From assembly GCF_017873415.1 (NCBI RefSeq), contig NZ_JAGGKD010000011.1:1-60429 (forward strand): a stretch of 60,429 nt of DNA, read 5' to 3'. Under the pieces are notes generated by a model that searched no databases, was not told the DNA's origin, and saw only the letters and a list, made by a program, of their open reading frames with translations. Position numbers and translations under genes: made by a program. Position 1 is the stretch's first letter, and every line of letters starts with the position of its first letter. Of this stretch, positions 22,066 through 56,011 are shown piece after piece. This DNA is from Methanolobus bombayensis. GTDB lineage: Archaea > Halobacteriota > Methanosarcinia > Methanosarcinales > Methanosarcinaceae.

Positions 22066-24576
22066 TTAGTTCCCTTCTACCCATTTAGGGATTTTCACGT
22101 GGAATGAACTACCAAGTCCTTTCTCACTCTCTATCCATATATTTCCATTATGAGCTGCCACAGTATCCTTGCAAATATAAAGACTGGATTCAAAACCCTG
22201 GAACATCCTTGCTATAGAATCATCTGCCTGATACATCTTGTAGAACAAACGCGGGATAAGGCTCTTGTCTATACCTTCACCTGTATCAGTTATGGTCACA
22301 TGCAAATAACTGCTTTCATCGGAAACGTCAACTCCTATGCTGTTTCCTTTAGGTGTGAGATTAATTGCATTGTGGATAAGGTAGACAAACATTTCCTTCA
22401 GTTTTTCCTTATCAGCTTTCACTGGCGGAAGGCCATTAGGAATCTCTTTTTCAAGTAAAAGTCCTTTTTCGTCTATAAGCAATATCTGGTTTAGCAGTAC
22501 ATCAGAGAGAACATTCTCGATACTTACCGGTTCAAATGAATAAGTAATCCGGCCTGACTGCTGCAGATCACTATATAGAACCGCATCTATCAACAGCTTT
22601 AACCTCTCAGAGTTATTCAGCATTATGGAAATAGCCTCTTTCTGAGAGTCATCCAGAAGGTTCAGTGTTTCATCATCCAATATATCGAAGCTATGCAAAA
22701 GTTCATGTCCGTTGTTCATGTATTCTTCGATGAATTCAGCTTTTATCATATTAACAGATCGAAGCTTAGTATTGGCTTTAAGCAATTCCTCGGAGTACTT
22801 GCTCAATGCACCTATTAACTGCTTTCTCTGAATAAGTTTCCACATACCCTGCATAAGAAGAGTTAGCTGGCGAACATCGGATTCATCGTAGTCTTCTTCC
22901 TTGTTTGCAACACCTACGACAGCAACAATATGCTCTCCATCAAATATGGGGACATTCATATGCCTTGTCAATTTAACATGTCCTTCAGGATAACCTTTTT
23001 TCAGTGGACTCGAAGCTTCATAATCATTTGTTATGATAGATTTTCTTTGTCGTATGGCTTCTCCCCACAACCCGGTATCCTTTACGGGATAAATAAACTC
23101 TTTATCTTTTATGGCACATTCACCCATTGCTGTCTTAGACCAGGAATGCATTATCAGGTCTGTCTCATCAGCATTCATGAATGCAAGATAGCCAAGTTTG
23201 CTGTCTGTAAGTCGAACAGCTTCTTCTTTGACGAATTCTGCTATTTCATCCAGGGAAGCACCTGTCATCTCATTGAGCTTTATCAATGCTTCAAGACGCG
23301 ATTCATTGAGCTCCTTTGCTTTTTCAGCCTTTTTACGTTCTGTAATGTCACGTGCAACAGACAGGATGGTCTTCTTTCCATTATAGTTTATCATCCTTGC
23401 ATTTATTTCCAGAGGGATAATACTTCCATCCCTGCATATGGCTGCAGCTTCATACATTGCCTTATGATCCCTTTCTATAATTTTGATGAGCTCAGAAGCA
23501 CGCTGCACGTACCATGAAGGAACAATATCCATAGGAGATGACTTTAAAATTAATTCTTTTGAATAACCAAGATCATCAACAACAACCTTATTAACATCTA
23601 TCAGATTGCCATTCAATTCACTGACATAGATCTGATCATTAATATTATTGAAAATTGTCTTGAATTTATGATCGGATTCCCTGAAAGTCTCATTGACTAC
23701 ACGGTGCTCTATCTCTATTGCTGCCAGATCAGCATTTGCCTTGAGATATTCGTAACATGTTTTCTTAGGTGCATTTGGAAAATTAAAGTACATTAAGAAA
23801 ACACCAAGTATCTCACCTGTAGATGATTTTATCAGTTCTGCCCAGCTGGCTTTGAGGCCTGCTTTTTTAGCAATATCCCTGTGCAGTGCCCAGTATGGAT
23901 GGACCTCTATATTTTCAACAATAACACGCTCACCCATATAGAGTGCAGTACCACCTGAACAAACACCGTATCCAATATCAAGACCTTCCATTGCTTCTTT
24001 GTAAAAGGCAGGAAGATTCGGTGAAATAACACGACAAATATGTTTTTTCTCTTTATCAAGAAGCATAACAGCACATGTAAGACCGTCACGTATCCGTTCA
24101 GCATTGGTAACAAGCAGTCCCAGAACATCATCAAGTGATATTTCCGTATAAGGTTTCCCATTGTGTTTTTTTTGTTGATGAGTTATCATTTCATTGTGCT
24201 TTCGCTCTGTAATGTCAATGATCGTACCTTCAAGGTGTAAATCGTCATCATCATACCTCTTTATACGAACCCTGTCCTCAACATATCGAACCTCTCCAAA
24301 ACGGCTGACTATTCTGTACTCCTGAATGAATTCTGGCAGTTGTCTGTTCAGGTACTTTAAAGCTTTTAAAACGACTTTTCTGTCATCCGGATGAACAAGA
24401 TCAGCATATTTGATCTCACCCGAATAGAAATCCTCTGGAGTATATCCGAATTGCCTTATGTTATTCGAGATGTACTTTACAGGAAAATCTTTCTCTATCC
24501 TTCTGGAAATCACAATAATAGGACTATTATTGATTATTGATTCCATACTAATTTTCATATCTGCTTGTCCAATCAT
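22066..24576 (-). CDS. PAS-GAF-PAS-GAF sensor histidine kinase (MsmS-like architecture)
   Basis: 836 residues, no TM: PAS/PAC (~15-130, VHPDDRKVVL and EGTIIDITERK), GAF (~150-295), PAS (~305-415, IVPSWYVQRA, ILSVARDITERKK), GAF (~430-590), then a kinase core. The putative phospho-acceptor is His624 in GHELLHSF, a degenerate H-box without the usual RTP. The N-box is LIHNAINLTPKG, G1 is DTGEGI, and the end is LGSSFHVKIPKW. The same domain order occurs in M. acetivorans MsmS/RdmS, soluble heme sensors linked to Msr regulators. Heme binding is not shown here, though GAF2 has a Cys in GECAIKD. No response regulator is adjacent. Confidence 0.85.
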   Translation of the reverse strand: MIGQADMKISMESIINNSPIIVISRRIEKDFPVKYISNNIRQFGYTPEDFYSGEIKYADLVHPDDRKVVLKALKYLNRQLPEFIQEYRIVSRFGEVRYVEDRVRIKRYDDDDLHLEGTIIDITERKHNEMITHQQKKHNGKPYTEISLDDVLGLLVTNAERIRDGLTCAVMLLDKEKKHICRVISPNLPAFYKEAMEGLDIGYGVCSGGTALYMGERVIVENIEVHPYWALHRDIAKKAGLKASWAELIKSSTGEILGVFLMYFNFPNAPKKTCYEYLKANADLAAIEIEHRVVNETFRESDHKFKTIFNNINDQIYVSELNGNLIDVNKVVVDDLGYSKELILKSSPMDIVPSWYVQRASELIKIIERDHKAMYEAAAICRDGSIIPLEINARMINYNGKKTILSVARDITERKKAEKAKELNESRLEALIKLNEMTGASLDEIAEFVKEEAVRLTDSKLGYLAFMNADETDLIMHSWSKTAMGECAIKDKEFIYPVKDTGLWGEAIRQRKSIITNDYEASSPLKKGYPEGHVKLTRHMNVPIFDGEHIVAVVGVANKEEDYDESDVRQLTLLMQGMWKLIQRKQLIGALSKYSEELLKANTKLRSVNMIKAEFIEEYMNNGHELLHSFDILDDETLNLLDDSQKEAISIMLNNSERLKLLIDAVLYSDLQQSGRITYSFEPVSIENVLSDVLLNQILLIDEKGLLLEKEIPNGLPPVKADKEKLKEMFVYLIHNAINLTPKGNSIGVDVSDESSYLHVTITDTGEGIDKSLIPRLFYKMYQADDSIARMFQGFESSLYICKDTVAAHNGNIWIESEKGLGSSFHVKIPKWVEGN

Positions 24577-24648: not shown

Positions 24649-26292
24649 TCATACTGCAGTAAGGTCACCAGGAGATATTGCTTTTATTTCCCTGTAATTG
24701 ATGGCTTTTACAGGACAAACCCCTATACACCTTTTACAACTCATACCAAGACACAGATGTGCAGTATAATCCACATACACATGTCCATCCTTTGGAACAA
24801 CATGTATGGCCTTTTCAGGACATTCGCGCTCACACATCCTGCACTGCATACATCCGCTGGATTCCTCTTCAATAAGCATGTCAAGATCCCTGATGATCTT
24901 GAGTCCCTGATAACCTGAGTCTTCAATATCCCTGTTAACTCTCTTTTCTACCGTTGGAATCATGTTAATATCCGGAAGAGCAGGCATACCATAGGATTCA
25001 AGGAACATGTTGTACATTTCATAGGGCATTCCTTCTGTCCAGTAAGCCAGTTCACATGCGTAGATGTTCTTAAAAACATCATTAGAAGCCAGCATAATGT
25101 GGTCCGCCTTGATCCTGTCAGCAAGACTTACTATCTCGTCCAGTTCATAATTACCAAGAATGACATCCTTTGCAAGTTCAAGTGAGGTGTTGCCGAATTG
25201 TACTATATTATTACAGAAAGCAGGTGCCAAGCCTATCTTACGTCCTTTCTCAGCATCAACGTAAGTTCCAGATGCACCTGACATATACATGTACTTAAGA
25301 TCCTCATACTTCACCCCGGATTCAATAAGTAATGTCAGATGAGCTGCCCTGATAGCCCCTATTGCTTTTCCTGCCTCTGCAAAATCCTCATCTGTAAGTG
25401 TAACTCTTTCACCAAGAATAAGTCTTCCTTTTGGCAACTCAGGTAATTTGGCTACCATACCGGAATTAATTGCCAGTGAAATTGCAGAAATTACGCCAGT
25501 GCCGGTGATTCCTTTTGACTGTAGTTCACCATCCTCTACGATAACTCCTGTCTCAGGATCTATAAGATCACCTTTTCCTGGTTGCATATTTTCATCCAGT
25601 ACGGTTATTCTCCAGAACCCGTTCTCTTCATTCACATCAGAAATGGCACCTGGACTGGCAAGCATTCCACATTTAATTCCCTGTCCTTCTATGGAAGGAC
25701 CTGCTGCAGCACTACAGGTGATTATACGGTCACCTACTTTAAGTGCCATCTCTGCATTGGTACCATAATCAGTAACAATAGCTACTTCATCCTGTTCAAC
25801 AAAATCGGTCTTTACCATCATTGCAAGGGCATCAGCCCCGATCTCATGTTCTATTGAAGGTAAAACAATTATCTCACATTCATCCAGACCTGAATCGGGA
25901 CCAAAGATATCCCTGCCGGTGTATATTTTCAGACCTCTCTCCACAGTTTCGATACCCAGTCTTCTTTGCATGTTCTTTCCGGCATATGCAAGATCCCTTA
26001 TTTCGATGTTCTGGAAAAGTGAGAGTTGTATAGGATTGCCACAGACAGCTATTTTTGTTATTGCATCAAAGGGAATGTGTAATTCATTGAACATTTTGAG
26101 AATAGTATGGACCATTATCTTGTTTGCATTTTTTTCTCCAACCTGAATAGCAAAACCCAGATGATCAATTACATTTCCTCCTGGCAAGGGATGTCGCATT
26201 GTCATTACTGTTTTGATAGCATTTTTGTTTATCAGGTTTATGAGCTGTAATCTAAATCCACTTGTTCCAAGATCTAATGCAATTCCATACAA
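24649..26292 (-). CDS. ramA: RamA-type reductive activase of corrinoid proteins
   Basis: 547 residues. An ASKHA-like ATPase domain (MYGIALDLGTSGFRL, VTDYGTNAEMAL, GITGTGVISAI) is followed by two C-terminal [4Fe-4S] motifs, CMQCRMCERECP (481-492) and CLGMSCKRCIGVCP (514-527). RamA uses ATP and electrons to reduce Co(II) corrinoid proteins to active Co(I) in methylamine methanogenesis. Placed near an MtbC/MttC-like corrinoid protein, MtbA and an Msr regulator, this is a good fit. The leader is long (~460 nt) and starts at the shared regulatory module at 26759-26803. Confidence 0.93.
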   Translation of the reverse strand: MYGIALDLGTSGFRLQLINLINKNAIKTVMTMRHPLPGGNVIDHLGFAIQVGEKNANKIMVHTILKMFNELHIPFDAITKIAVCGNPIQLSLFQNIEIRDLAYAGKNMQRRLGIETVERGLKIYTGRDIFGPDSGLDECEIIVLPSIEHEIGADALAMMVKTDFVEQDEVAIVTDYGTNAEMALKVGDRIITCSAAAGPSIEGQGIKCGMLASPGAISDVNEENGFWRITVLDENMQPGKGDLIDPETGVIVEDGELQSKGITGTGVISAISLAINSGMVAKLPELPKGRLILGERVTLTDEDFAEAGKAIGAIRAAHLTLLIESGVKYEDLKYMYMSGASGTYVDAEKGRKIGLAPAFCNNIVQFGNTSLELAKDVILGNYELDEIVSLADRIKADHIMLASNDVFKNIYACELAYWTEGMPYEMYNMFLESYGMPALPDINMIPTVEKRVNRDIEDSGYQGLKIIRDLDMLIEEESSGCMQCRMCERECPEKAIHVVPKDGHVYVDYTAHLCLGMSCKRCIGVCPVKAINYREIKAISPGDLTAV

Positions 26293-26737
26293 ACAAAATC
26301 CTCCTTTTTATTTTAAGCGTGAAAGCCTGGCATGCAATTCAATTGTATATGCAATTGGTTTATCAGAGAACTATAAATAACGAATTCGAGGAAAAAATAA
26401 GAGGCTGCGATATTATCGATGCTTAAGGTAAGAATAATATTGTTGATAAAAAAAATACCGGAATTAAAAATAACATGATTGATTTTATCAAAACCATATT
26501 TTTACTAAAATAGCAGAAACATTAAACCCGATTTTAAATTTCAGTATGAAATTGATAATTGTTTGCAGGGCCATTTTAGGATGTGGAGAGACCCTGCAAA
26601 ATAAGTGGATATACAATATGCACAGTCTTCAAGAAATAATATAACTTAATTTTTGAATTGTATTTCAGCAGATCGGAAGTAGAATTACAGACCCTTGAAA
26701 TGTGCATTTATGTTCTTTATCCACTCACGGACAATTC
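26293..26737. other. 445-bp leader of ramA without a gene
   Basis: AT-rich, with no open frame that looks coding. If transcription of ramA starts near the TATA-like element at ~26750, this is a long 5' untranslated leader. No riboswitch or strong hairpin is recognisable by eye. Confidence 0.5.
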
Positions 26738-26803
26738 ATGCTATCCGGTAATAGCATATATAATAACTTGAAGTAATTAATCAATTGATAGAATATTATC
26801 AAT
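26738..26803 (-). promoter_or_regulatory. ramA promoter: proximal module block (copy 1) and hairpin
   Basis: 26759-26803 is the 45-bp block shared with 30854-30898 and 53547-53591. Read toward ramA it begins ATTGATAATATT, contains ATTGATTAATTACT, and ends in AGTTATTATA, running into a TATA-like element. The palindrome ATGCTAT-CCGGTA-ATAGCAT (26738-26757) follows where transcription would start. 38 of 45 bases match copy 2. ATTGAT occurs twice, 20 bp apart, as for a dimeric regulator. Confidence 0.75.
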
Positions 26804-26877
26804 ACCGTGTTTTCAATTCAAACAATGAATTTTACGACTTGTTAATTCAGAATTAGAATATTCAAAATAACAGGAAT

Positions 26878-26946
26878 ATGAGGACAATTAAAGCCTTTGA
26901 CAATATCAAAAGCATGAATGCTTATTTGAGAAAAGAACTAAAATAA
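26878..26946 (+). CDS. conserved mini-ORF / distal module motif (copy 1)
   Basis: ATG-started frame of 22 codons (MRTIKAFDNIKSMNAYLRKELK) divergent from ramA and convergent with msr1. Codons 26863-26919 align without gaps with the same segment at 30737-30793 and 53652-53708 (core FD-x-I-x-x-M-N). Several differences are at third codon positions, but the DNA core TTTGAYNATATCAA is also palindromic. It could be a mini-protein or a regulatory DNA element. It lies 92 bp from the proximal block. Confidence 0.45.
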   Translation: MRTIKAFDNIKSMNAYLRKELK

Positions 26947-26968: not shown

Positions 26969-27751
26969 TCATATAACACGTTCTGCAATTTCTCTGTAAT
27001 GCAAAAAGAAATCCTGTCCCCATTCCCTTGCACTATCCTCAAAGCTTATGACTTTTTTATGATCGAAGAATCCCTTCTTATTGAAGAATGATAACAGAAG
27101 AAGATTATCAGTAACAGATATTGCACCTGGTTTCATTATGTTCTCTTCACACACATAAAGATGTGAAGTGGGAGATTCAATAATTGCATTATATTGTTCT
27201 GTATATTCATCCCGTAGTCTTTCATATACAGGCCTTGTAAGAATAAGATTATAATTCACTTCTTTTTTTGCCAGCTCTGCATAGTTATTGGGACATGTGG
27301 GACAGAAATATGAGTAGAATGTACAGACATTCTTTGTCTGCTTAAGACTCACAAGCAGTTCCCGGGGGGGTTCGAATAGATGGTTAAGATCAGGCTCATG
27401 TATCAGAACATCTCCCAGGTCACCAATCCTGTCAAGCAAAGGGTCCGGTACTGCACCAAGGTCCCTGCTTGCCCAAAACTCCTTATTCCCTTCAACAACA
27501 TTGAGAGCCTCTATTAGCGGTTTTATTTTTTTAAGGATTATGTGACCAACATGTGTCAATCTGTATTCATCATTCTCCTGTTCTATTAGACCCTGCTCCA
27601 GAAGAATTTTGATCTGAGCCATGATCGCACTGGTTGTACCATTTATGGATTTCTTTATCTCATCAATAGTAGCTGGTCCATCCATTAACATTAGCAAAGT
27701 GTTTTTTCTTTTTTCCGATAGAAACACCGTACTTATCAATTCAGTTTTCAT
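26969..27751 (-). CDS. Msr/FilR1-type methyltransferase regulator, copy 1
   Basis: 260 residues: N-terminal winged helix (NTLLMLMDGPATIDEIKKSI, SAIMAQIKILLEQGLIEQE) and the FilR1 (DUF1724) domain with HEPDLNHLFEPPRELL, a CPTC motif (SYFCPTCPNNY) and a C-terminal SFEDSAREWG. Methanosarcina Msr proteins of this type control methyltransferase genes. Clearly paralogous to 55229-56011. Located next to ramA and the zinc protein. It is a candidate binder of the module in front of ramA, by context only. Confidence 0.88.
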   Translation of the reverse strand: MKTELISTVFLSEKRKNTLLMLMDGPATIDEIKKSINGTTSAIMAQIKILLEQGLIEQENDEYRLTHVGHIILKKIKPLIEALNVVEGNKEFWASRDLGAVPDPLLDRIGDLGDVLIHEPDLNHLFEPPRELLVSLKQTKNVCTFYSYFCPTCPNNYAELAKKEVNYNLILTRPVYERLRDEYTEQYNAIIESPTSHLYVCEENIMKPGAISVTDNLLLLSFFNKKGFFDHKKVISFEDSAREWGQDFFLHYREIAERVI

Positions 27752-27868: not shown

Positions 27869-28210
27869 TTATTGCCCTGGTCTTTCTCCAAAAGTATGAT
27901 GATATCGTTTTATTACTGATTCAATGTAGTTAGCTGTCATTCTTGTGGATCTTTTGGACATGAAGTTCCTTAACGGAAATTCTGTATGACAGTGTGTACA
28001 TCTGGCAAGTTCACAACCCCTGACAAGGCTTGGACATCCTGTACATAATTTTGCTCTTGAGTAGAACAGATTGAATGATCTGCCACATTCAGGACAAAGA
28101 AGCATTCTGTTGGCATCATAGAAGTTCTTGTTAACCCCTTTTCTCTGCAGCTCAAAAGAATACCGTTCATCGCGTCTCAGATCATCAATATATTTTTTCT
28201 CATCAGACAT
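27869..28210 (-). CDS. small multi-cysteine zinc-binding protein
   Basis: 113 residues from MSDEKKYIDDL, whose ATG follows AGGTGA by 5 nt; the longer frame to 28246 lacks a site. Cysteines: CPEC (39-42), CTGCPSLVRGCELARCTHC (56-74), then a basic C-terminus (SKRSTRM, VIKRYHHTFGERPG). Two or three treble CxxC pairs suggest one or two Zn (or Fe-S) sites. I do not recognise the family. Its place between the Msr1 gene and the OYE-type gene suggests a role in the methyl-transfer locus. Confidence 0.7.
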   Translation of the reverse strand: MSDEKKYIDDLRRDERYSFELQRKGVNKNFYDANRMLLCPECGRSFNLFYSRAKLCTGCPSLVRGCELARCTHCHTEFPLRNFMSKRSTRMTANYIESVIKRYHHTFGERPGQ

Positions 28211-28523
28211 TATTTCACCTTTTTGACAGTTATACATGATTTTCATTTCATACCTATATATAACGAATTATAGTTTCAAATCAAAAAGTCATAAGAAATC
28301 TTTAATCAACAAAATAACAACGATGTCGATAAAATCAAAGGCTTGAATTTAGCATTTACATAAGATATAATAGACAGGTAGAGATATATTTTTACACAAC
28401 AAGGCACATATCATTTGCCTGTTATTGATAATTATGTATTATCCGGATACCTCTTTTATCAAATCAAAGGAAGATAAAAAAATGTTTTTATGTAGCTAAT
28501 ATCAGAGATGATGTGAGGGATAT
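28211..28523. promoter_or_regulatory. divergent intergenic region upstream of the OYE-type gene
   Basis: AT-rich. It contains a half-copy of the proximal block (ATTGATAAT, 28424-28432) and a TATA-like AAGATATAATAG near 28363, but not the full 45-bp module. GAGGGA at 28515-28520 is the only good ribosome-binding site before the gene. Confidence 0.4.
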
Positions 28524-30692: not shown

Positions 30693-30853
30693 GCTTTTTT
30701 AGCTTACTAAAAAATTTCCTATTTGATAGTGATTATATTCATGCTATTGATATAATCAAAGTCATTCTTTTTTTTCTTATTGATGTTTTCCTGAAAGCTG
30801 TAAATCCGGAATACTGTATTTGCAAAATCCATATTTTGAATATAGAATGCTGT
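30693..30853 (-). promoter_or_regulatory. distal module motif and mini-ORF, copy 3
   Basis: Minus-strand frame 30832-30719 (ATG to TAG) encodes 37 residues: MDFANTVFRIYSFQENINKK, then KKNDFDYINSMNIITIK. Codons 30793-30737 align without gaps with 53652-53708 and 26863-26919. The core TTTGATTATATCAA at 30760-30747 lies 93 bp from the proximal block. As in the other two loci it diverges from a methyl-transfer gene. No ribosome site is clear. Confidence 0.45.
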
Positions 30854-30900
30854 ATTGATAATAATATATTCATTGATTAATTACTATAAGTTATTATTTA
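30854..30900 (+). promoter_or_regulatory. promoter of the corrinoid-protein gene: proximal module block (copy 3)
   Basis: ATTGATAATAATATATTC, then ATTGATTAATTACT, then AGTTATTATTTATA: the 45-bp block reading toward the gene, with a TATA-like TTATTTATAT at its end. Predicted leader of about 115 nt to the ATG at 31041. Confidence 0.75.
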
Positions 30901-31040
30901 TATCTATTATTGGATATGGTAAATTGTCAGCAATTGCAGGTTCTGACCTTTTGCTGTCATGAGAAATTATTCGTGGAACAAATGATCAGAAATGTAAAAA
31001 AACTCCATTTCTGGAATTTAATAAGATCAGGAGGTATCCT

Positions 31041-31706
31041 ATGGAAGAAAATGAGATTATTAATGGACTTACAGATGCCGTTGTCAACGGAAAGAAAGAT
31101 CAGGCAGTTGAATTAGCACAAAAAGCACTGGACGAGGGTATTGACCCATATATTGCAGTGATCAATGGTCTTGCAAAGGGTATGGAGATAATGAGTGAAA
31201 AGTACGAGAACAAGCAGGCTTTCATGCCACATCTGCTCATGGCCTCAAATGCAATGTACGGAGGTATGGACGTTCTTATACCTCATATCAAGTCAGAAGG
31301 AGATGGTGCAAGAAAGGTCCTTGTCATTGGCAGTGTAGAAGGAGATGTTCACGACATTGGAAAGAACCTTGTTAAAACAATGATGAGTGCTGTAGGCTTT
31401 GAAGCAATAGATCTTGGAAAAGACGTACCAGTGGAACAATTTGCAGAGGCTGCTGCTGAACATAAAGCAGACATCGTATCAATGAGCACACTCATGACCT
31501 CAACAATGGACAATATGCAGAGGGTCATGGACAGCATCCAGAGCAAAGGAATCAGAGATAACCTTAAGGTGATCATTGGCGGTGCACCCATAACCGCAGA
31601 CTTTGCTGATGAAATCGGAGCAGATGCTACAAAGACCGATGCCATGGAAGCTGCAAGATGGGCACAGGAAGCAGCTGCTTCGCTTGCACCTGAAAGATGG
31701 GGTTAG
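31041..31706 (+). CDS. methyltransferase corrinoid protein (MtbC/MttC/MtgC type)
   Basis: 221 residues. An N-terminal helical cap domain is followed by a cobalamin-binding Rossmann domain with DVHDIG at 102-107 (His104 is the lower cobalt ligand) and GGAPIT later. Such proteins carry the methyl group from a substrate-specific methyltransferase to MtbA/MtaA, and RamA reactivates them. Start follows AGGAGG by 7 nt. The usual partner (MtbB/MttB/MtmB or MtgB) is not adjacent or anywhere in the window. Sequence details (SVEGDVHDIGKN, C-terminal APERWG) look nearer to MttC/MtgC-type than to MtmC. Confidence 0.9.
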   Translation: MEENEIINGLTDAVVNGKKDQAVELAQKALDEGIDPYIAVINGLAKGMEIMSEKYENKQAFMPHLLMASNAMYGGMDVLIPHIKSEGDGARKVLVIGSVEGDVHDIGKNLVKTMMSAVGFEAIDLGKDVPVEQFAEAAAEHKADIVSMSTLMTSTMDNMQRVMDSIQSKGIRDNLKVIIGGAPITADFADEIGADATKTDAMEAARWAQEAAASLAPERWG

Positions 31707-32044: not shown

Positions 32045-33064
32045 ATGGATGAGTATACACCTAAAGAGAGGCTGGCCCGTGCATTAAGAGGAGAATCTGT
32101 TGACAGGATGCCAGCGATATCCGTTACACAAACAGGAACTGTAGAACAAATGGAAGCCTGTGGCTCATTCTGGCCTGAAGCTAATGAGGATGCAGGAAAA
32201 ATGGCTGCTCTTGCAGAAGCCGGTCACACTGTCATTGGATTTGAGGCTGTACGTGTCCCTTTCGACATCACTGCAGAAGCTGAGTTCTTTGGATGTGACA
32301 TCAAAGCAGGCACAAAGGAGCAGCAACCATCTGTTGTAGGACATGTTGTAAGATCAAGCGATGACATTGACAAACTCAAAGATTATGATATCAGCCAAGG
32401 ACGTGTTGGTGTTGTCTGTGAAGCTATCAGAATACTCACAGAGAAATATGGTGATGAACTGCCAATAATGGGCAGTATGCTGGGTCCTTTCTCACTGGCA
32501 CAGCATATGAATGGCGACGACTGGTTCATGGCCATCATGACAGATGAGGAATTTGGCCATGCACTCATGGAGCTCACAACAGAGTTCAATATCGCTTATG
32601 CAAAGAAAATGGTAGATAACGGAGCAGATACAATGGTCATCATTGACCCTACTGCAAGTGCTATGCTTATCGGTGACGAATTCTACCAGAAGTTTGTGGT
32701 GCCTGCTCACAAAAAGATCGTTGACGCAATGCATGAACTGAATGTTGCCACTGTACTCCACATCTGTGGCGATACCACACCAAGTCTGGGTCTTATGGAA
32801 TCATCAGGAGTAGATGCCATCAGCGTGGATCAGAATGTGGATGTTGAAACTGCCTGTAAAATGGTCAATAATGCAGTGATCATAGGAAATCTTGACCCTG
32901 TGAGTGCCCTGTGGAAAAAGAAACCTGAAGAGATCCAGAAAATATCAAAGGATGTGCTGGATGCAGGTGCTGGTTTGCTTGCCCCAGGATGTGGTATTGT
33001 CAGCAAGACTCCGAACGCAAACCTTCAGGCAATGGTCGAGGCGGCAAAGAACCATAAATATTAA
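32045..33064 (+). CDS. mtbA: methylcobamide:CoM methyltransferase, MtbA-like
   Basis: 339 residues of the UroD-fold methyltransferase family, moving a methyl group from the corrinoid protein to coenzyme M. Zn ligands: LHICGD (His239, Cys241) and PGCGI (Cys316). The N-terminus [20 protein letters not shown] and the run [18 protein letters not shown] agree well with MtbA of methylamine metabolism. Start follows AGGAGATCATCACA. Works with the corrinoid protein 338 bp upstream and RamA. The 45-bp module is absent directly upstream. Confidence 0.88.
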
Positions 33065-45449: not shown

Positions 45450-46214
45450 TCAGTCCAGCAATATGCTAAGTATGTGACTTTTGAGCTGAGAGAAATCGCC
45501 TGATCCTGTAAGTGATATTGGACGGGGCCACTCAAAAGGAACGGAAATCTCTTCGATGATTCTGCCTGGCCTTTTACTCATGATGCATATGCGATCGGAC
45601 AACAGAAGTGCCTCTTCCACGTCATGTGTTATAAAAACAATCGTCTGCCTGTTGCTTTCCCAGAGTCTGAGCAAGAGTTGTTGCATGCTGTAACGGGTCT
45701 GTGCATCCAATGCTGCGAAGGGCTCGTCCATCAGGAGTACCTTCGGGTTCAGTATAAGTGAGCGGGCAAGGGCAACTCTCTGTTGCATGCCTCCTGATAA
45801 CTGGCAAGGGTAATAATTCTCGAAACCCTCAAGCCCGACGGCACTGATATATTCAGCAGTGATCTTCTGTGCTTCCCCCTTCTTTTTTCCTACCTGCTTC
45901 AACCCATACATGATATTGCTCTTCACATCCATCCATGGAAAAAGGACCGGAGACTGGAACACTACTGCCCGCTCGGGGGAAGGACCTTTAATAGGTTCAC
46001 CACAGCAAAACGTTTGGCCTTGGTTTGCAGTCTCGAATCCTGCAAGGATATTTAGAAATGTAGATTTCCCACATCCACTTGGCCCCAGGATAGTGACAAA
46101 CTCACCCTCCTTAATCTCAAAATCCATATCTTCCAGTACGTACAGAAGCCTGTCTTCACCGGGTTGTAAAAAACACTTACTGATATTATTTGCTGAAAGG
46201 TCTGTTCTTTTCAC
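45450..46214 (-). CDS. ABC importer ATPase (NitT/TauT type)
   Basis: 254 residues: Walker A GPSGCGKST, Q-loop VVFQSPVLFPWMDV, signature LSGGMQQR, Walker B VLLMDEP, H-switch ITHD, the class that energises uptake of nitrate, taurine or thiamine precursors. Starts 4 bp inside the permease end. Last gene of the eight-gene operon 53391-45450. Confidence 0.92.
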   Translation of the reverse strand: MKRTDLSANNISKCFLQPGEDRLLYVLEDMDFEIKEGEFVTILGPSGCGKSTFLNILAGFETANQGQTFCCGEPIKGPSPERAVVFQSPVLFPWMDVKSNIMYGLKQVGKKKGEAQKITAEYISAVGLEGFENYYPCQLSGGMQQRVALARSLILNPKVLLMDEPFAALDAQTRYSMQQLLLRLWESNRQTIVFITHDVEEALLLSDRICIMSKRPGRIIEEISVPFEWPRPISLTGSGDFSQLKSHILSILLD

Positions 46215-47017
46215 TCTTCATAGCCCCTTTTGAGTAAATTCAGTTTTCTGAAAGAGCCTACAAGTATCAAATCACTGATGCGGCCAAAAAGTCCTATGAA
46301 AATCATGGCCACGAGGATCATCTCAACATTCCCAAGCATACGGGCATCCATCATAACAGCACCAAGTCCGTGTGTGACCCCTGTCAGCTCACCTAATACA
46401 AGATATGCCCATGAAAGTCCAAGACCTAGCCGTAGCCCGGCTACAGTGGATGGCATAGCTGCGGGTATGATGACAGTTGTGAATATCGTCAGATTATTCG
46501 CTCCCAGCATTCTTCCAGCACGAATCAACAAAGGTGACACGGATGCGGCTCCTTGGGCCGCATTTACGTATATCGGAAAAAAAGCTGCCAGGGAAATAAG
46601 AAATACTGTGGTCTTCTCTCCAACACCGAACCATACCATTGCAAGGGGAAGCCAACCTATTCCGGGAACTATACGTATCAAATGTACAGTTGGATCCAGC
46701 GAACTCTTTGCCAGAGCCAGTCGTCCTGTAAGGAAACCAAGTGGAAGCCCTATAGCTGCAGCCAACCCAAACCCTGTGAAAACCCTCTGTACGCTGGCTA
46801 TTGTGTGCACAAGTAGCGTTCCTGAGTAAGGGCCAAGTCTCTCACTGCCTGCGGTAAAATCAATTACAGCGAGTGCAAGGGCCAATGGGGAAGGAAGCAG
46901 GTATGCAGGCACACCGCCATCAAGTGTTGCAATATACCAGATGGTGAATAATGCAACAGGCAGTATGAGGCCTGTAAACCCCAATCTTCCGTTATTTTCA
47001 TGCATTCTTGCTGTCAT
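46211..47017 (-). CDS. ABC importer permease (NitT/TauT type)
   Basis: 268 residues, six TM segments and the EAA-type loop MLGANNLTIFTTVIIPAAMPST. Overlaps the binding-protein gene by 20 bp and the ATPase by 4 bp. Forms the channel of the importer. Confidence 0.9.
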   Translation of the reverse strand: MTARMHENNGRLGFTGLILPVALFTIWYIATLDGGVPAYLLPSPLALALAVIDFTAGSERLGPYSGTLLVHTIASVQRVFTGFGLAAAIGLPLGFLTGRLALAKSSLDPTVHLIRIVPGIGWLPLAMVWFGVGEKTTVFLISLAAFFPIYVNAAQGAASVSPLLIRAGRMLGANNLTIFTTVIIPAAMPSTVAGLRLGLGLSWAYLVLGELTGVTHGLGAVMMDARMLGNVEMILVAMIFIGLFGRISDLILVGSFRKLNLLKRGYEE

Positions 47018-47978
47018 CCAGATCTTTACGTGCCTGTTCCACGAAACTCAGGTCAAATAAAGTATCCATATCCGGTATTTCTTCTATCATTCCCAGATCC
47101 TTCATTCTCTCTCCGAGATTCTCAGCCTGCCGGACATAGTTCTCGTCCATGTCCCATGCAAGTTCCATATTACTTGCAGCTATCTCCAGAACCACAGAAT
47201 CTGTTCCGAAATCAGAAGACATGTTGATCCATTCTTCCTGGTTGGCTTTCAGGTATTCGGTTGACCTGGCATGGGCTGTCACGAGTCTCTGTATACCTTC
47301 TCTGTTATTCTCGATCTTATCCCTTGTTGTAAGCATGCCTGCATTGATTGTACCAACTCCTTCCCCGTAATACGGATAACTGAGCACGCGTCCGTAACCA
47401 TCTGCTACGGCAAGAGATGGATAAGGCTCACCACTGCAGAAAGCATCAACGTTGCCCTGCGAAAGAGCCTGCCCCATATCGAAGAAGTCTATCCTCTGTA
47501 GTGTCACATCCTTTTCAGGATCAAGGCCTGCCTGTTTCAGTGTTTCCAGAAGCAGGACATGATGCATGGTCCCGGGTACATAGGCTATTGTCTTGCCTTT
47601 CAGGTCTGCAGGTGTCATGATATCCGAGTCATTCATGACAACGATTGCCGAACATTTATTGCACAGGCTGCTTACAACAACAACAGGCTCGCCTCTTGAG
47701 GCAGCGGTTATTGCAAGGGCAATCGTTGTACCTGTTATATCAAGATCGCCAGCAAGCAGAGCAGCTTTCTGATCGCCAGGATTGGTGAAGGGGAGTACAT
47801 CTATAATGTAATCTTCTTCAACGAAGTCCTGATAGAGGAAGGGCTGTATGGTCTGTGCCGTTTTCCAGGTACCTACAGTTGCAACTTTGCTGTCCTGATC
47901 GGCACTACCGGTGCATCCTGAAATGGACAAAGCAATAAGAACAATGATCATCATCAGAACAGAGACTACTTTTCGCAT
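46998..47978 (-). CDS. ABC importer substrate-binding lipoprotein (NMT1/SsuA type)
   Basis: 326 residues with a lipobox (ALSISGCTG) after a hydrophobic N-terminus, then a two-lobed NMT1/SsuA-like domain: ALLAGDLDITGTTIALA, LKGKTIAYVPGTMHH, GNVDAFCSGEPYPSLAVA. Two extra Cys (SSLCNKCSA) near the ligand cleft are unusual. Members bind sulfonates, nitrate or pyrimidine/thiamine precursors; here the ligand is probably the substrate of the operon's own enzymes. Confidence 0.88.
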   Translation of the reverse strand: MRKVVSVLMMIIVLIALSISGCTGSADQDSKVATVGTWKTAQTIQPFLYQDFVEEDYIIDVLPFTNPGDQKAALLAGDLDITGTTIALAITAASRGEPVVVVSSLCNKCSAIVVMNDSDIMTPADLKGKTIAYVPGTMHHVLLLETLKQAGLDPEKDVTLQRIDFFDMGQALSQGNVDAFCSGEPYPSLAVADGYGRVLSYPYYGEGVGTINAGMLTTRDKIENNREGIQRLVTAHARSTEYLKANQEEWINMSSDFGTDSVVLEIAASNMELAWDMDENYVRQAENLGERMKDLGMIEEIPDMDTLFDLSFVEQARKDLDDSKNA

Positions 47979-49021
47979 TCATTCTCATCTCCTGAATAGA
48001 AGGCATAGCCTGCATTCTTAAAGTAGTCCCTTGCAGTGGCCATATCAAAACCGTTCCATTCACACTCGCAGTTCCCGGTATCCCTGGGAACAGCACCTGT
48101 CTCGACAACTACCACGTTGGCACCCCATTCCATTGCAACGCGGGAAGGAGGATGTACACAGATGTCAGGTGCATGATGACCGGCTGCCAGACGTGTGACC
48201 GCTACTATCTGTGCATGCCTTCTCTCGGATAACTGACCACTGCCTGAAAAAGGAGTGCCTGGAAGTGGCACCCTTGCCATTGCTCCTGAAAGGATGGCAC
48301 CATACTCCATACCTTTCAGGAAGATGTCAGCAATCTCCTCATTGCTGTGTTCCATACCTACGGGTTCCACAAGATAGGCAAGGTTGAGCGGTGACTCCCT
48401 GACGGACCTCAGGGTGTCAATTCTGTCCTCGGGTCTGAACCTTGTATCCTTACCTTCACGCAGGCGAAGAGTATGATAAACCACCTGTGCTCCCGCATTT
48501 GCAAGTCTCCTTGCTTTTTCATCATCAAATTCACCGGTGTTCACAACTATTTCATAATTGCCGGGAACCGCCAGGCGAATTTCCTTTATGAGCCGAATGA
48601 GCCTGTCGAACCCGTAGAACTGTGTCGTGCGCAAGGTGACCCATCTCGCACCCTGGGAAACGAACCTGTCTATCAGTCCGATGATCTCTTCAGTGCTCCT
48701 TTCACTTTCCTGTTCTATAAGCCCCCATTTCTTGCCGAATGAACAGAAATCGCAATTCATGGCACAATTTTTGTAATCCACCCCAATGGATGCCCACACA
48801 CTTGCCATGTTTCCGGTGACCACTTCGGCAACTTCCCTTGCGGCAATCCCGAGCATATCAGCATTAATGGAATCCGAGTCAATCTCAAGCAGGGCTATGA
48901 TACTCTCCCGGTCCAGTTTTTCACCATTCAGTGCCTTTTCTTTTGCAGCAAGAATAAGATTCGTATATGAGAATTCACTTATTGGTCTCTCTTCTCTGAC
49001 ATCAACGGATACACCACTCAT
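47966..49021 (-). CDS. radical SAM enzyme, BioB/HydE/PylB-like
   Basis: About 351 residues from MSGVSVDVREE (the ATG 2 bp after the ligase stop, preceded by GTGAAG); the frame to 49084 is too long. N-terminal helix set typical of biotin-synthase-like enzymes, then C86-x3-C90-x2-C93 (CAMNCDFC) binding the SAM cluster, with barrel motifs VNTGEF, VYHTLRLRE and a C-terminal VETGAVPRDTGNCECEW. Catalyses some 5'-deoxyadenosyl radical step. Not HmdB (which has CX5CX2C). The substrate is unknown. Overlaps the binding-protein start by 13 bp. Confidence 0.8.
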   Translation of the reverse strand: MSGVSVDVREERPISEFSYTNLILAAKEKALNGEKLDRESIIALLEIDSDSINADMLGIAAREVAEVVTGNMASVWASIGVDYKNCAMNCDFCSFGKKWGLIEQESERSTEEIIGLIDRFVSQGARWVTLRTTQFYGFDRLIRLIKEIRLAVPGNYEIVVNTGEFDDEKARRLANAGAQVVYHTLRLREGKDTRFRPEDRIDTLRSVRESPLNLAYLVEPVGMEHSNEEIADIFLKGMEYGAILSGAMARVPLPGTPFSGSGQLSERRHAQIVAVTRLAAGHHAPDICVHPPSRVAMEWGANVVVVETGAVPRDTGNCECEWNGFDMATARDYFKNAGYAFYSGDENECEK

Positions 49022-49023
49022 GC

Positions 49024-50160
49024 TTACTTCACCATCCTTTCTATATCGCTTATCCTCTGGTCCAGACAGGCACCACACATACACGGCTCATCGATAATAG
49101 ATGTGATATCACGAGTCCTGTATCGGATAAGTGGCATGCATCTCCTTCTCAGGGTAGTGACAACAAGCTCACCTTTCTCACCTGCTGGCAATACCTTCCC
49201 AGTCTTCGGGTCGATGACCTCAACAAGGAAATCAGGATTGTTCAGGTGGAAACCGTTCTGATGCTCGCACTCAATTGCGTTTGCAAGACCAAGTTCTGTC
49301 ATTCCCCACTGGCGCAGGGTCTTACAACCCCAAACATTTTCGATTATTTCTCGCATGGTCTCTGTAAGAGGTTCGGATGAACAGATTATCATTTTAATCC
49401 CAAGTTCACCTGGTTTCATAAGTCCGCGTGCCTGCATTGAAAACTTATAGAGGAAAGATGATGTCCCAATCATAAAGGTTGTACCATTCTCTTTCATTGT
49501 CTTTATCTGTTGTTTGGCATCAAGAGAATCCTCGATAACGGAGTTAAAACCTCCGAGAGTGCATGCTTTACTCAGGACAAGTCCGGGATCCCATGTTGCT
49601 GTGATGGTGGGGTACATTATCTGTAAAACATCATCCTTTGAATCCATACCTGCCATTTTCAGACCTGATATTACTGAATCCACGATCTCCAGCAGTTCAT
49701 CCTGGGTGTATGCCATCCTTTTCAGCATATTTGTCGTACCGGAACTTGTAAACTCACGGATTATGTTTTTTCTCGGAACACAAAGGAAGTGATAAGGTTT
49801 GTTTGCAAGGTCTGACTGTTCTGTGAGTGGCAGTTTTTCAAGGTCCTCATAACTCTTGAACGTGGAAATATCGATGCCTGCATTTGCATAAAGGTCCTGA
49901 TAATAGGGACTGTTATCCAGCACGTAGCCAAGAATTTCCCTGAACTTGAAGAGCTTATATTCCTTAATAGCATCCCTGTCAAGTTCAACGCCGCCAAAAT
50001 GATGACTCAGTACCTTGTTATTCTTTATGTCGTTCCTTATTTTTGTGAGACCCCACTGTTCAAGCGGGTTTCCATGATGGCTTTTTATCTTTCTGGAATC
50101 AAGTTTCCTTTTCGCCACGTTCATGCGAACAGATGTTTTTATTTTTGCCTGAAGACTCAT
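49024..50160 (-). CDS. AMP-forming acyl-CoA ligase, PaaK-like
   Basis: About 378 residues from MSLQAKIKTS, whose ATG follows AGGAGGAAGATT. Adenylation motifs FTSSGTTNMLKRMAYT, RQWGMTELGLA and LIRYRTRDIT are those of phenylacetate-CoA-ligase-like enzymes; shorter than PaaK (~430) and with a C-terminal CMCGACLD. It resembles the ligase of the DVU_1553 type seen in conserved clusters with zinc-ribbon and radical SAM genes. It would activate a carboxylic acid as an adenylate or CoA thioester. Confidence 0.8.
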   Translation of the reverse strand: MSLQAKIKTSVRMNVAKRKLDSRKIKSHHGNPLEQWGLTKIRNDIKNNKVLSHHFGGVELDRDAIKEYKLFKFREILGYVLDNSPYYQDLYANAGIDISTFKSYEDLEKLPLTEQSDLANKPYHFLCVPRKNIIREFTSSGTTNMLKRMAYTQDELLEIVDSVISGLKMAGMDSKDDVLQIMYPTITATWDPGLVLSKACTLGGFNSVIEDSLDAKQQIKTMKENGTTFMIGTSSFLYKFSMQARGLMKPGELGIKMIICSSEPLTETMREIIENVWGCKTLRQWGMTELGLANAIECEHQNGFHLNNPDFLVEVIDPKTGKVLPAGEKGELVVTTLRRRCMPLIRYRTRDITSIIDEPCMCGACLDQRISDIERMVK

Positions 50161-50258
50161 AATCTTCCTCCTGTACATGTACAACTTAAGACCATGCGGT
50201 CATTTGCCCGAAATAAAATAACCGGATAAAATGAAGTTTTAAAAATAAAATATTAGAA

Positions 50259-51722
50259 TTATATAGCATTCCTGTAAAGGAAATTACCGTTGCAATCGGT
50301 CATATTGTAATTACAGAACGGTACAAAATGCCCGTCACGTGTAACAACATGTATGCAACAGTTCTCCACACGGTCCTGCTCGTATGACCAGGCGTCCTGG
50401 AATGCCATTGTTGAAATGGTAAGATAATTGTTCTTGCTCATTTCAATGAAATCAGCCCAGCCTCCATTCTTATCCTTACCTGAACCTGAGTTCTTTGAAA
50501 CGACATCTATAAGTGGTTTCTCGCAGCATGAACCCTTCACGGTTATGTCACTGAGAGGCTTTTCACAGCATGAACTCTTTATCAGCAGATCACCACAGGA
50601 AGAACTAGAAGTTGAAGTTGAATCCTTTTCAAGACCTTTCCATCTGCCCATGATTGACTTCTTGGTCTTGCTGGCAACGTCTGATGCTGATTTGACAGCA
50701 CCCATGGAGACGTTTGTAAGTGGCAGGTATCCACCATTATCTATCAATGTGAGACATGTTGCACCGCAATGAGCATGCGGCATCAGGGCCGGTGTAAAAT
50801 TGCTGACCTTGAGCTGTCCATTGGTCTGCTTTTCAATCTCCTGTAACAGTTTCAGTATGGTGACCTTATCCTTCATGTCTGAAGGTGACCTTCCCGAATG
50901 GAACACGGGCTGGAAATGCACACCTCTAACCGCCGGGACCCTGCTTGCTGCGAAGTCAATGATCTTCCCAACTTCTTGCAGGTTGTAACCATTTGCAACC
51001 AGAGGTACCAGCACAACACCGATACCTGCTTTCTCACACCTGTTTATGACCTCGGTCTTTACGTCAAGCATCTTCCTTCCGGTTCTCTGCATGTATATGT
51101 CATCTGACACTCCATCGAATCCGAGGTAGACAGCATCCACTCCTGCGGCTGCTATTTTATCAAAATAATTCTGGTCGCTGGCTATCCTTATTCCGTTGGT
51201 GTTGAGCTCAATGTGATTGATACCTATTTCCTTACCCACCCTGATAATTTCCGGAAGGTCATTCCTTATGGTAGGTTCACCTCCGGATATCTGTATACAT
51301 GTGGGTTCATTCTGGCATTTCTTTACTGTTTCGAACATCAGCCTGATGGTATCCATATCAGGATCAAGACTCTCATCCATTGATGAGTTAGCAAAACAAT
51401 ATGTACATTTCATGTTGCACCTGTCAGTGACCTCGACCACTGCCAGGCACGTATCCTGTTTATGAGAGGGACACAGGCCACAATCAAAAGGACAGCCCCT
51501 TTTTGTATCTGTCAAAGGTGCCCTGGCCTTCGCCCTGTCCACATCAAAACATTCCTCCATCTGACGATAATGGTTCACATCTTCAGATACAAGGTTAATG
51601 AAATTGCCATGGTCAGCACAGTTCTTCATTATGTAGACCTTACCGTCCTCTACATACTTTATGCCTTCAATTTTGGCAAGGCACTGCGGACACAGACTCC
51701 GGACCTTTCCTATTTGTTCCAT
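50259..51722 (-). CDS. radical SAM enzyme, COG1964 (Tes/MJ0619-like) group
   Basis: 487 residues. N-terminal zinc/rubredoxin-like part (CPQC 11-14, C35), then C77/C81/C84/C92 and the SAM cluster motif C102-x3-C106-x2-C109 (CNMKCTYC). The order is that of the MJ0619 (pterin C-methylation) and tetraether-synthase-like family. An insert near residues 382-405 repeats SCCEKPL twice (period ~14), unusual for the family. The C-terminal half has CCIHVV and PFCNYN. Likely carries extra Fe-S clusters. Substrate unknown. Confidence 0.82.
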   Translation of the reverse strand: MEQIGKVRSLCPQCLAKIEGIKYVEDGKVYIMKNCADHGNFINLVSEDVNHYRQMEECFDVDRAKARAPLTDTKRGCPFDCGLCPSHKQDTCLAVVEVTDRCNMKCTYCFANSSMDESLDPDMDTIRLMFETVKKCQNEPTCIQISGGEPTIRNDLPEIIRVGKEIGINHIELNTNGIRIASDQNYFDKIAAAGVDAVYLGFDGVSDDIYMQRTGRKMLDVKTEVINRCEKAGIGVVLVPLVANGYNLQEVGKIIDFAASRVPAVRGVHFQPVFHSGRSPSDMKDKVTILKLLQEIEKQTNGQLKVSNFTPALMPHAHCGATCLTLIDNGGYLPLTNVSMGAVKSASDVASKTKKSIMGRWKGLEKDSTSTSSSSCGDLLIKSSCCEKPLSDITVKGSCCEKPLIDVVSKNSGSGKDKNGGWADFIEMSKNNYLTISTMAFQDAWSYEQDRVENCCIHVVTRDGHFVPFCNYNMTDCNGNFLYRNAI

Positions 51723-51773
51723 GATATCCCTCTCCAGGTGGTATATTTAAATCTCAGTGATTCTGAGATTTAT

Positions 51774-52232: not shown

Positions 52233-52278
52233 GTGAAACACTCCTTGAATTTTATTTATGTTGTTGTCTCTCCTTTCC

Positions 52279-53391
52279 TTAGAACTTCTCATACTTACCG
52301 TGGTCTTTTGCAGCCTTTACCAGTGCGTGGACATTCACAGGCGGTGCGTTGGTCGGACATTCACAGGCAGTTCCCAGGATGAATCCTCTCGGACTGTCCT
52401 TTCCGGCAATGACCTGCTCTTTTGCCTGCTCATAGACCTGTGCAGGTGTTCCACGGTCTATCAGCTTAGTATCAACTGTACCAAAACAGGTGCATCTGTC
52501 ACCGAAGTGTTCCACAAGCTTGGATGTCGGGAAGATGTTCTGTCCGTCATATCCTATCTGTACAATAGTGAAAGGACTCATTGGAGCGTTCTTCCACATC
52601 TGGAAGTCATCAGTATGGTTTCCACAAAGATGGTAGTAAATACCCGGACCTGCTCCTGCATTCAGGACCTTTCTCACAGCACGGGAAACAGGCTGGAAAC
52701 TGAACCTCTTGATCTGTTCAGTGTCCATGAGATCACCGCTGGCGATAACTGAACCGGTGATCATTACGTTTGCACCGTATCTCTCAGCAGTGGCTTTACA
52801 TGCACTAACCATGTGGTCTCCTGCCTTCTGGCAGAGTTTATCGACGACCTCTGGTTCTGTTATCATCCACATGAATACATCTTCAATTGCAGCCCAGTTA
52901 GTTGCAACTTCCATTGTTCCTCCCAGCTGAGTGATAGGAGCGAACATGTTGGGGAATTCCTCTTTACATGTGTCCAGTGCCTTGTAGTGTGTTGTAAGGG
53001 TTGGACCTTTAGCAAGTTCATCACTATCCATTACTTCGAAGTTGTCAACATCTTCAGCGGTCTTTATTGGACGCTTGGTAATACCTGGCGGGGAATTTGT
53101 CTGTATCTTGATCTCTGCTCCATAGTCCTGTCCCCAATAATCGGCATACAGGTAGTGTCCTACCGGAGTGACGTCATAGAGTTCACAGGCATGGCATACC
53201 ATCCTTATCGCTTCATCGGGATTCTGGTAAAAATATCCTGCATTTTTCCTAAACAGACTTGCAGCATGGGACAAAATAATAGGGTCAACAATAACTCTTT
53301 CAGATGGCTTGTCAACCCAAGGTGTTGTCCATAAACTTCCTGCATTTTCTAGCCAATTTTCATCTATTGGTGCATAGTCTTTTGCTGGCAT
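52279..53391 (-). CDS. UroD-family methyltransferase (MtaA/CmuA-like), substrate unknown
   Basis: 370 residues with the UroD-fold Zn site His254-x-Cys256 (YYHLCGN) and a third Cys at 343 or 345 (GTACECPTNAPPVN). It is not a heme enzyme: family members with HxCG and a late Cys move methyl groups between corrinoids and thiols or demethylate ethers. Distinct from MtbA at 32045. It leads the eight-gene operon and carries the shared regulatory module 155 bp upstream, and Msr2 lies just beyond. It could be the substrate-side or the CoM-side enzyme. Confidence 0.85.
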   Translation of the reverse strand: MPAKDYAPIDENWLENAGSLWTTPWVDKPSERVIVDPIILSHAASLFRKNAGYFYQNPDEAIRMVCHACELYDVTPVGHYLYADYWGQDYGAEIKIQTNSPPGITKRPIKTAEDVDNFEVMDSDELAKGPTLTTHYKALDTCKEEFPNMFAPITQLGGTMEVATNWAAIEDVFMWMITEPEVVDKLCQKAGDHMVSACKATAERYGANVMITGSVIASGDLMDTEQIKRFSFQPVSRAVRKVLNAGAGPGIYYHLCGNHTDDFQMWKNAPMSPFTIVQIGYDGQNIFPTSKLVEHFGDRCTCFGTVDTKLIDRGTPAQVYEQAKEQVIAGKDSPRGFILGTACECPTNAPPVNVHALVKAAKDHGKYEKF

Positions 53392-53546
53392 GATTTGATC
53401 ACCTATGTTCTTATCATATCTAGCAGAAATGGAGTAGTTATACTCTCCAGTTCCTGCTATCTATGTGGTAAGTAATTATTTCAGGTCGGGAAGACTAATT
53501 CAAGTCGTAATTCCTGACCATAAACAAATAGCAGTCTGGAAATATT

Positions 53547-53591
53547 TATAATAACTCTTAGTAATTAATCAATACATATATTATTATCAAT
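53547..53591 (-). promoter_or_regulatory. promoter of the UroD operon: proximal module block (copy 2)
   Basis: 45-bp block, 38/45 equal to 26759-26803. Read toward the gene: ATTGATAATAATATATG, ATTGATTAATTACT, AGTTATTATA, then TATA-like ATAAATATT. Leader of ~125 nt to the start codon. The strand shown is that of the controlled operon. Confidence 0.75.
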
Positions 53592-53648
53592 GCAGCATCA
53601 AATGTTCAAAGAATGGTTTTAATATAAGGTGTAATCCTGAATGACAGC

Positions 53649-53751
53649 ATGCAGGAAAACTGCAATGAAGAAAAAAAGAATGCCTTTGATAATATCAAGA
53701 CCATGAATCAAATCATCTGTCAGGAAGGATTGGAGTTGCCTGAAAAGTGAA
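53649..53751 (+). CDS. conserved mini-ORF / distal module motif (copy 2), cut by TnpB 2b
   Basis: ATG-started frame: MQENCNEEKKNAFDNIKTMN, then QIICQEGLELPEK. Codons 53652-53708 align without gaps with 30737-30793 and 26863-26919. The stop TGA (53748-53750) is formed by the right end of the TnpB element (AAG-TGA-ACT), so the original end is lost. A better ribosome site (AAGGTG) serves another frame. It is 93 bp from the proximal block. Confidence 0.45.
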
Positions 53752-55228: not shown

Positions 55229-56011
55229 TCATTTTATCTTTTCAGATATATCCTTGTAATAATGGAAGAGGTCAACGCCCCATCCACGTGCACTTTCTTC
55301 AAAACTGATAACTTTTTTGTGATCAAAGATTCCATCATTATTGAAAAAAGCAATTAGCATTATGTCATCTGTAACAGAGAGTGCTCCTAGTTTCAGAGAA
55401 TCGTCATCACATATATACATACTTGAATTCTTTGAATTCATCATTGCATCATGCTGTTCTTTATATTCATCCCTTAGTCTTTCATAGACTGGCCTTGTGA
55501 GAATTAGATTGTAGTTCACTTCCTTTTTTGCCAGTTCTGAATAATTGTTGGGACAGCTAGGACAGAAATATGAATAAAAGGTACAGACATTCTCAGTCTG
55601 CTTGAGACTTGTGAGTAACGCTTTTGGTGGCTCGAATAGATGATTCAGGTCCGGTTCGTGTATCATTACCTCTCCGAGATCACCAATTCTGTCCAGTAAA
55701 AATTCAGGGATAGCACTTAGATTTCTGCTGTCCCAGTAATCCTTGTTATCCTCAAGGACATTCAGGGTTTCTATCAGAGGCTTTATTTTTTTCATTACTA
55801 TTTTTCCAATAGAGGTCAACCTGTATTTGTCCTCATTTTGCTCAATAAGTCCCTGTTCATAAAGGATCTTTACCTGAGCCATAATAGCACTGGTTGTTCC
55901 TGTAAGAGAATCTTTTATCTCATCGACGGTAGCTGAACCGTCCATTAACATCAGTAGAGTTTTCTTTCTCTTTTCTGATAGAAACACCGTACTTATCAAT
56001 TCGGCTTTCAT
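55229..56011 (-). CDS. Msr/FilR1-type methyltransferase regulator, copy 2
   Basis: 260 residues, collinear with Msr1 at 26969: winged helix (KTLLMLMDGSATVDEIKDSL), FilR1 domain (HEPDLNHLFEPPKALL, FCPSCPNNY, VISFEESARGWG). The CPSC/CPTC pair is conserved in both copies and could bind metal or sense redox state. By position it would control the UroD operon, from which it is now separated by the TnpB insertion. Confidence 0.88.
   Translation of the reverse strand: MKAELISTVFLSEKRKKTLLMLMDGSATVDEIKDSLTGTTSAIMAQVKILYEQGLIEQNEDKYRLTSIGKIVMKKIKPLIETLNVLEDNKDYWDSRNLSAIPEFLLDRIGDLGEVMIHEPDLNHLFEPPKALLTSLKQTENVCTFYSYFCPSCPNNYSELAKKEVNYNLILTRPVYERLRDEYKEQHDAMMNSKNSSMYICDDDSLKLGALSVTDDIMLIAFFNNDGIFDHKKVISFEESARGWGVDLFHYYKDISEKIK

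Follow-up and report, generated by a model that had tools for sequence, protein, structure and literature searches.

A conserved, probable promoter element of about 165 bp at corrinoid methyl-transfer units of Methanolobus bombayensis and related Methanosarcinaceae

The methyl-transfer genes and the repeated block

The DNA analysed in this study (the window) was a stretch of 60,429 nucleotides from Methanolobus bombayensis, whose genome has a size of 3.12 Mb. It carries genes of corrinoid methyl transfer, and three copies of a 45-bp block stand before such units (copy 1 before ramA, copy 2 before the corrinoid protein gene and copy 3 before the UroD operon). The genes were as follows.

22066-24576, minus strand: PAS/GAF histidine kinase gene, after ramA
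24649..26292, minus strand: ramA, corrinoid reductive activase (TIGR04270, E 1.4e-221)
26969..27751, minus strand: FilR1/Msr-family gene, directly upstream of copy 1 and co-oriented with it (PF08350, E 3.6e-32)
27869..28246, minus strand: orf125, encoding a protein without clear family; the next gene is the FilR1 gene
31041..31706, plus strand: corrinoid protein gene, downstream of copy 2 (TIGR02370, E 5.7e-61)
32045-33064: mtbA, after the corrinoid protein gene (NF041608)
45450-52292, minus strand: remainder of the UroD operon, with DUF7479, HMPTM-type radical SAM, AMP-binding, second radical SAM and NMT1-type ABC transporter genes
52279..53391, minus strand: UroD-type methyltransferase gene, downstream of copy 3 (PF01208, E 8.4e-37)
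53759-55021, minus strand: TnpB gene, between copy 3 and the FilR1 gene
55229..56011, minus strand: FilR1/Msr-family gene, upstream of copy 3 with the TnpB gene between (PF08350, E 2.3e-34)

The UroD operon is an unusual methyl-transfer cluster, and its substrate is not evident.

An earlier note on this DNA had described the blocks at 26759-26803, 30854-30898 (opposite strand) and 53547-53591 as alignable without gaps. Direct extraction and comparison confirmed the alignment and the coordinates. Copies 1 and 2 agreed at 38 of 45 positions, the same figure as in the note; copies 1 and 3 also shared 38 and copies 2 and 3 shared 40. The strings ATTGATAATA, ATTGATTAATTACT and AGTTATTAT, named there as invariant, were identical in all three blocks, and every block had the one orientation relative to its downstream gene and a TATA-like run at its end, as had been claimed. 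The ATTGAT repeat had been given a period of 20 bp; it stands at offsets 0 and 18, so the period is 18 bp.

A BLAST search of the genome with copy 2 recovered the other two blocks at E values of 9e-15 and 1.6e-11, and the next-best place had an E value of 1.8e-4. A matrix seeded from the three blocks and iterated over related loci, with a cut-off of 14 bits, found 57 sites at 24–60 bits; shuffled DNA gave none above 14 bits. The three blocks are real and far above chance.

Extent, geometry and distribution of the element

The block is the promoter-proximal slice of a rigid, gap-free element of about 165 bp that runs from a 13-bp palindrome, TTGATnnTATCAA, to the TATA box. The earlier description of a 45-bp promoter unit thus held for the existence of the block and failed for its size. 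The three full copies, each matched in the own genome by R1, a sequence-only profile built from 41 copies, and their parts were as follows.

26745..26921, minus strand: full element, copy 1 (E 2.4e-29), containing block 26759-26803; palindrome 26897-26909, TATA-like run 26756-26767
30734..30911, plus strand: full element, copy 2 (E 6.1e-33), containing block 30854-30898; palindrome 30747-30759, TATA-like run 30890-30903
53535..53711, minus strand: full element, copy 3 (E 6.2e-31), containing block 53547-53591; palindrome 53686-53698, TATA-like run 53543-53555

Positions were numbered in promoter orientation, on the reverse complement of the block as written, with the block start as 0. Conservation spans -117 to +49. 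The distal patches were ATTCATGCTTTTGATATTATCAAAGG at -117, gTTTTCCTG near -67 and AATCC near -50, followed by AATCCAT..TTTGAA at about -29 to -14; within the block they were ATTGATAATA at 0, TTGATTAATTACC at 19 and AAGTTATTATATATA at 34. Two TTGAT half-sites, 18 bp apart, lie in the block and are followed by the TATA box. The palindrome started exactly at -107 in 41 of 46 copies, at -106 in four and at -108 in one. Unlike this spacing, the distance from block to start codon varied widely. The TATA-like run was nearly invariant among copies and always stood on the gene-facing side. The earlier note had suggested a dimer on one face of the helix through ATTGAT; what the alignment shows instead is a fixed array reaching back to the palindrome at -107. 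The conservation profile had a period of 17.75 bp that exceeded those of permuted profiles; this is no more than suggestive, since permuting takes no account of how smooth the profile is.

On the side of the block that faces away from the methyl-transfer gene, the conserved part could be thought to be a small gene or non-coding RNA read outward, and a short FDNIKxMN frame is visible in the window copies. This frame was broken in most other copies. All frames on both strands from -170 to 0 held stops in at least 36 of 46 copies, which makes it unlikely that the region encodes a conserved small protein. For 41 aligned copies, RNAalifold gave -1.06 kcal/mol with the five pairs of the palindrome alone, so the element itself does not form a structured RNA. 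The outward reading is refuted as far as a conserved gene or a conserved structure is concerned, and the explanation as a whole is highly improbable.

R1 found three strong copies in the own genome (E 6e-33 to 2e-29) and a diverged copy at C4:8279-8451 (E 7.5e-6). A decayed fourth copy was present in the window.

28184..28350, minus strand: decayed copy before orf125 (R1 E 0.0156 when the own genome was searched and 0.00029 for the window by itself); palindrome-like TTGATTTTATCGA 28326-28338, TATA-like 28255-28264

The position of the decayed copy was matched at E 1e-4 or better in several relatives. A diverged copy lay by orf125 at four loci of one clade (L071 10580, L076 11425, L074 8657 and L073 11194), whose other flank was a divergent msrA-like (methionine sulfoxide reductase) gene next to an OYE-like gene.

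R1 detected the element in 31 of the 112 genomes of the family Methanosarcinaceae, representing 6 of 14 genera. Across 186 genomes of the order, all 30 positives were within that one family, and none was found in the other families. The training copies match R1 by construction, and held-out support comes from genus g3 and others and from the diverged loci. No R1 match at E 0.001 was found in the Methanosarcina-size genomes listed. orf125 was present in 26 of the 112 family genomes, 25 of which also carried the element. It is not the counterpart of MM2440, because it was absent from the Methanosarcina-size genomes listed.

The strong copies stood before a corrinoid protein, UroD methyltransferase or ramA gene in nearly all genomes. 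The exceptions included L214, with one copy before radical-SAM/transporter genes of the UroD cluster, and L069, L070 and L218, whose neighbour genes were not assigned to the usual targets. The C4 copy precedes the following operon.

L204 7530-15001, plus strand: C4 operon, with a B12-binding/URO-D fusion gene followed by Hydantoinase_A, Cpn60 chaperonin, URO-D and RACo-like genes

The fusion of B12-binding and URO-D parts at C4 suggests that the separate corrinoid and UroD proteins of the window work together. The FilR1 gene of the C4 operon is immediately preceded by a PAS-type sensor gene (L204 3831-6371). Genome-wide, the element fell at corrinoid methyl-transfer units instead of at many unrelated genes, the outcome that the earlier note had named as refuting its reading, and it is largely confined to such units.

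Several copies per genome, and the TnpB gene beside copy 3, would also fit a spreading repeat (a mobile element or recent duplication) without regulatory function. Such an origin is very hard to reconcile with the same copy classes standing before the same orthologous genes in many species. The window copies were 51–78% identical pairwise inside the element and 24–31% in both flanks, which is chance identity. The close relatives L050 and L051 had no TnpB beside the UroD copy and had the FilR1 gene directly adjacent; therefore, the TnpB gene is a later insertion.

Predicted transcript starts and the interval before ramA

Stem-loops were found at the predicted 5' ends of two transcripts.

30926..30960, plus strand: corrinoid-protein transcript (stem-loop conserved across 17 leaders, with paired changes)
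53484..53519, minus strand: UroD transcript (stem-loop conserved across 13 leaders, with paired changes)

Both leaders carry the type GUCAA..ACAGAU..AUCUGU..UUGAC, with pair changes on both sides, at an equal offset from the TATA box. A comparable ACAGTG..CACTGT stem was present in C4-type leaders. Transcript starts are predicted near 26735, 30926 and 53519. These predictions agree with Methanolobus psychrophilus, in which BRE/TATA lies about 19–22 nt from the start (PMC5378194).

Copy 1 had been taken for the ramA promoter. It does precede ramA, but it lies 466 bp off, with a structured RNA and a second promoter between. The interval between copy 1 and ramA was about 450 nt in this genome and roughly 420–590 nt in relatives.

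26559..26726, minus strand: conserved structured RNA of about 170 nt, read from copy 1 (covariation and R2 matches)
26372..26491, minus strand: second, diverged promoter element immediately ahead of ramA (aligned at all 17 of the 17 ramA loci); TTGATAAAATCAA 26479-26491, ATCGATAATATCG 26408-26420, CGTTATTTATA 26372-26382

The RNA has one closing stem and two inner stems, a conserved core, and at its 3' side a hairpin whose loop is TCTCTCCACA. Among 11 sequences, 88.4% of cells were paired, compared with 34–43% with slid partners. Twelve pairs changed on both sides, compared with 6.8 in shuffles; inspection of P1 was used in aligning the sequences, a choice that favours this stem, and the structure string included one stray pair (helix 4) without a both-side change. 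The covariance model R2 found one copy each in 16 genomes of the genus, all at the ramA locus, with 5 of the 16 outside training. A single weak match lay in another genome of the family. Rfam gave no gathering-level match in the window and one chance microRNA match with an E value of 1.6. The structured RNA before ramA appears to be previously undescribed, and copy 1 appears to drive it.

A similar case is sRNA162 of Methanosarcina mazei (PMC3510493), a 191-nt structured RNA that lies beside an ArsR-type regulator gene and is linked to methyltransferase control; the window RNA likewise follows a FilR1 gene. It differs from sRNA162 in having ramA as its neighbour and in its stem arrangement. 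Homology to sRNA162 was judged through R2 and found no support, as the Methanosarcina-size genomes listed gave no R2 match at E 0.01.

The second promoter-like element follows the RNA and carries TTGATnnnATCAA, TCGATnATATCG and CGTTATTTATA in the relatives' alignment. It matched R1 at 30–39 bits in one clade. Because the structured RNA and then this promoter intervene, copy 1 probably drives either the RNA or a long leader instead of ramA alone, and ramA may be served by the near promoter. A more specific model is put forward tentatively, as a serious possibility: copy 1 would mainly promote a new regulatory RNA of about 170 nt that is co-controlled with the methyl-transfer operons. The exposed pyrimidine-rich stretches of this RNA (the TCTACnTCC core and the TCTCTCCACA loop) might pair with ribosome-binding sites of the regulon or help to sense a ligand of corrinoid metabolism, and ramA would be read mostly from the second promoter.

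FilR1/Msr-family regulators and the proposed control

FilR1/Msr-family genes had been reported near copies 1 and 2. This was correct for copy 1; none adjoins copy 2, and the second gene lies upstream of copy 3, beyond the TnpB gene. For 40 of the 70 copies, a co-oriented FilR1/Msr-family gene ended upstream at a distance below 450 bp; the other 30 had no adjacent FilR1 gene. The adjacency recurred at ramA, UroD, corrinoid-protein and C4-type copies in several genera. Most Methanolobus genomes had an OYE-like gene, not a FilR1 gene, upstream of the corrinoid-protein copy, and genus g3 had a FilR1 gene at that place. The FilR1_middle family (PF08350) had 12 matches in the own genome, most of them not linked to the element. 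G036, a relative of 4.2 Mb (loci L279-L308), had 33 such matches and no R1 copy.

The linked FilR1 proteins had the common recognition-helix string [ST][ST]SA[IM][MI][AT]Q, one wrong-frame row aside. The string occurred in none of the readable unlinked FilR1 paralogues of this genome. For the two window proteins (260 aa), the common helix is weak evidence alone, because they are 72% identical overall. Diverged C4-type elements kept the same order of parts, and TTAAT often replaced TTGAT. The FilR1 proteins that accompany these TTAAT elements form a subgroup with about 40% identity to the other two, and their helix mostly has SAMMTQ where the others have SAIMAQ.

Binding to promoter DNA is documented for FilR1 of Methanosaeta (PMC3991700), and mtaCB operons are activated or repressed by Msr proteins (PMC11218639). 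The reading as an Msr operator is the best one, because a FilR1 gene lies upstream in 40 of 70 copies and the TTAAT version goes with a different FilR1 subgroup. The earlier proposal of an Msr operator joining separate loci into a regulon gained support from the methyl-transfer targets, these 40 linked copies and the TTAAT pairing, but its geometry was wrong. Judged from sequence, it is quite likely that the block belongs to a regulated promoter of about 165 bp, probably under FilR1/Msr control, and that this promoter serves a regulon of corrinoid methyl transfer in Methanolobus and related family members.

Alternatively, the array could be bound by another protein (a regulator, the orf125 product or an architectural protein), with FilR1 genes nearby through common methyl-transfer islands. 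The 30 copies without an adjacent FilR1 gene would fit this, as would the co-occurrence of orf125 with the element, which is just as tight as that of FilR1. A similar FilR1 helix also exists without the motif: FilR1 proteins with SAIMTQ in a Methanosarcina-size genome of 4.2 Mb had no TTGAT array within the 460 bp downstream. Against this stand the adjacency at four kinds of copies in several genera and the joint change of half-site and FilR1 subgroup, and binding by another protein is considered rather unlikely.

Under FilR1/Msr control, winged-helix proteins of this family would bind the repeated TTGAT sites cooperatively along the fixed array. Once bound, they may switch the methyl-transfer units together according to the methyl substrate, probably acting as activators. 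At ramA, the copy 1 promoter would first yield the structured RNA, and the second, diverged promoter, which is of the same kind, stands directly before the gene.

Related systems are known in methanogens. In Methanosarcina acetivorans, MsrA/B act on mtaCB1, and MsrD/E act on mtaCB2 and mtaCB3 (PMC11218639). As in that organism, FilR1/Msr-family genes adjoin corrinoid methyltransferase operons here, each presumably acting on its neighbour. Unlike the system described there, one element with a defined array of about 165 bp joins several separate units. The same source reports for HdrR and the hdrBCA promoter of Methanosarcina barkeri a methanogen regulator with a palindromic site conserved among species, similar to the present case; as far as the accessible text shows, HdrR has one site at one operon, whereas a long array of fixed spacing occurs here at several loci (PMC11218639). 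FilR1 of Methanosaeta harundinacea gave the FilR1_middle family its name, and its ArsR-related domain binds promoter DNA (PMC3991700). It is a two-component response regulator of about 54 kDa, compared with 260 aa for the window proteins, and the accessible text names no binding motif (PMC3991700). Neither an Msr operator of such a kind nor this Methanolobus operon was described in the open-access literature searched.

Msr-type regulators decide which methyl substrates methanogens use. Because the long fixed array has clear half-sites, exists in TTGAT and TTAAT versions linked to regulators and comes in dozens of natural variants, its binding code is open to direct testing. The element also points to genes of a methyl-transfer pathway that are probably co-regulated, namely those for the corrinoid protein, mtbA, the UroD methyltransferase, ramA and orf125. 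At ramA, the structured RNA may add a further level at which corrinoid activation is controlled.
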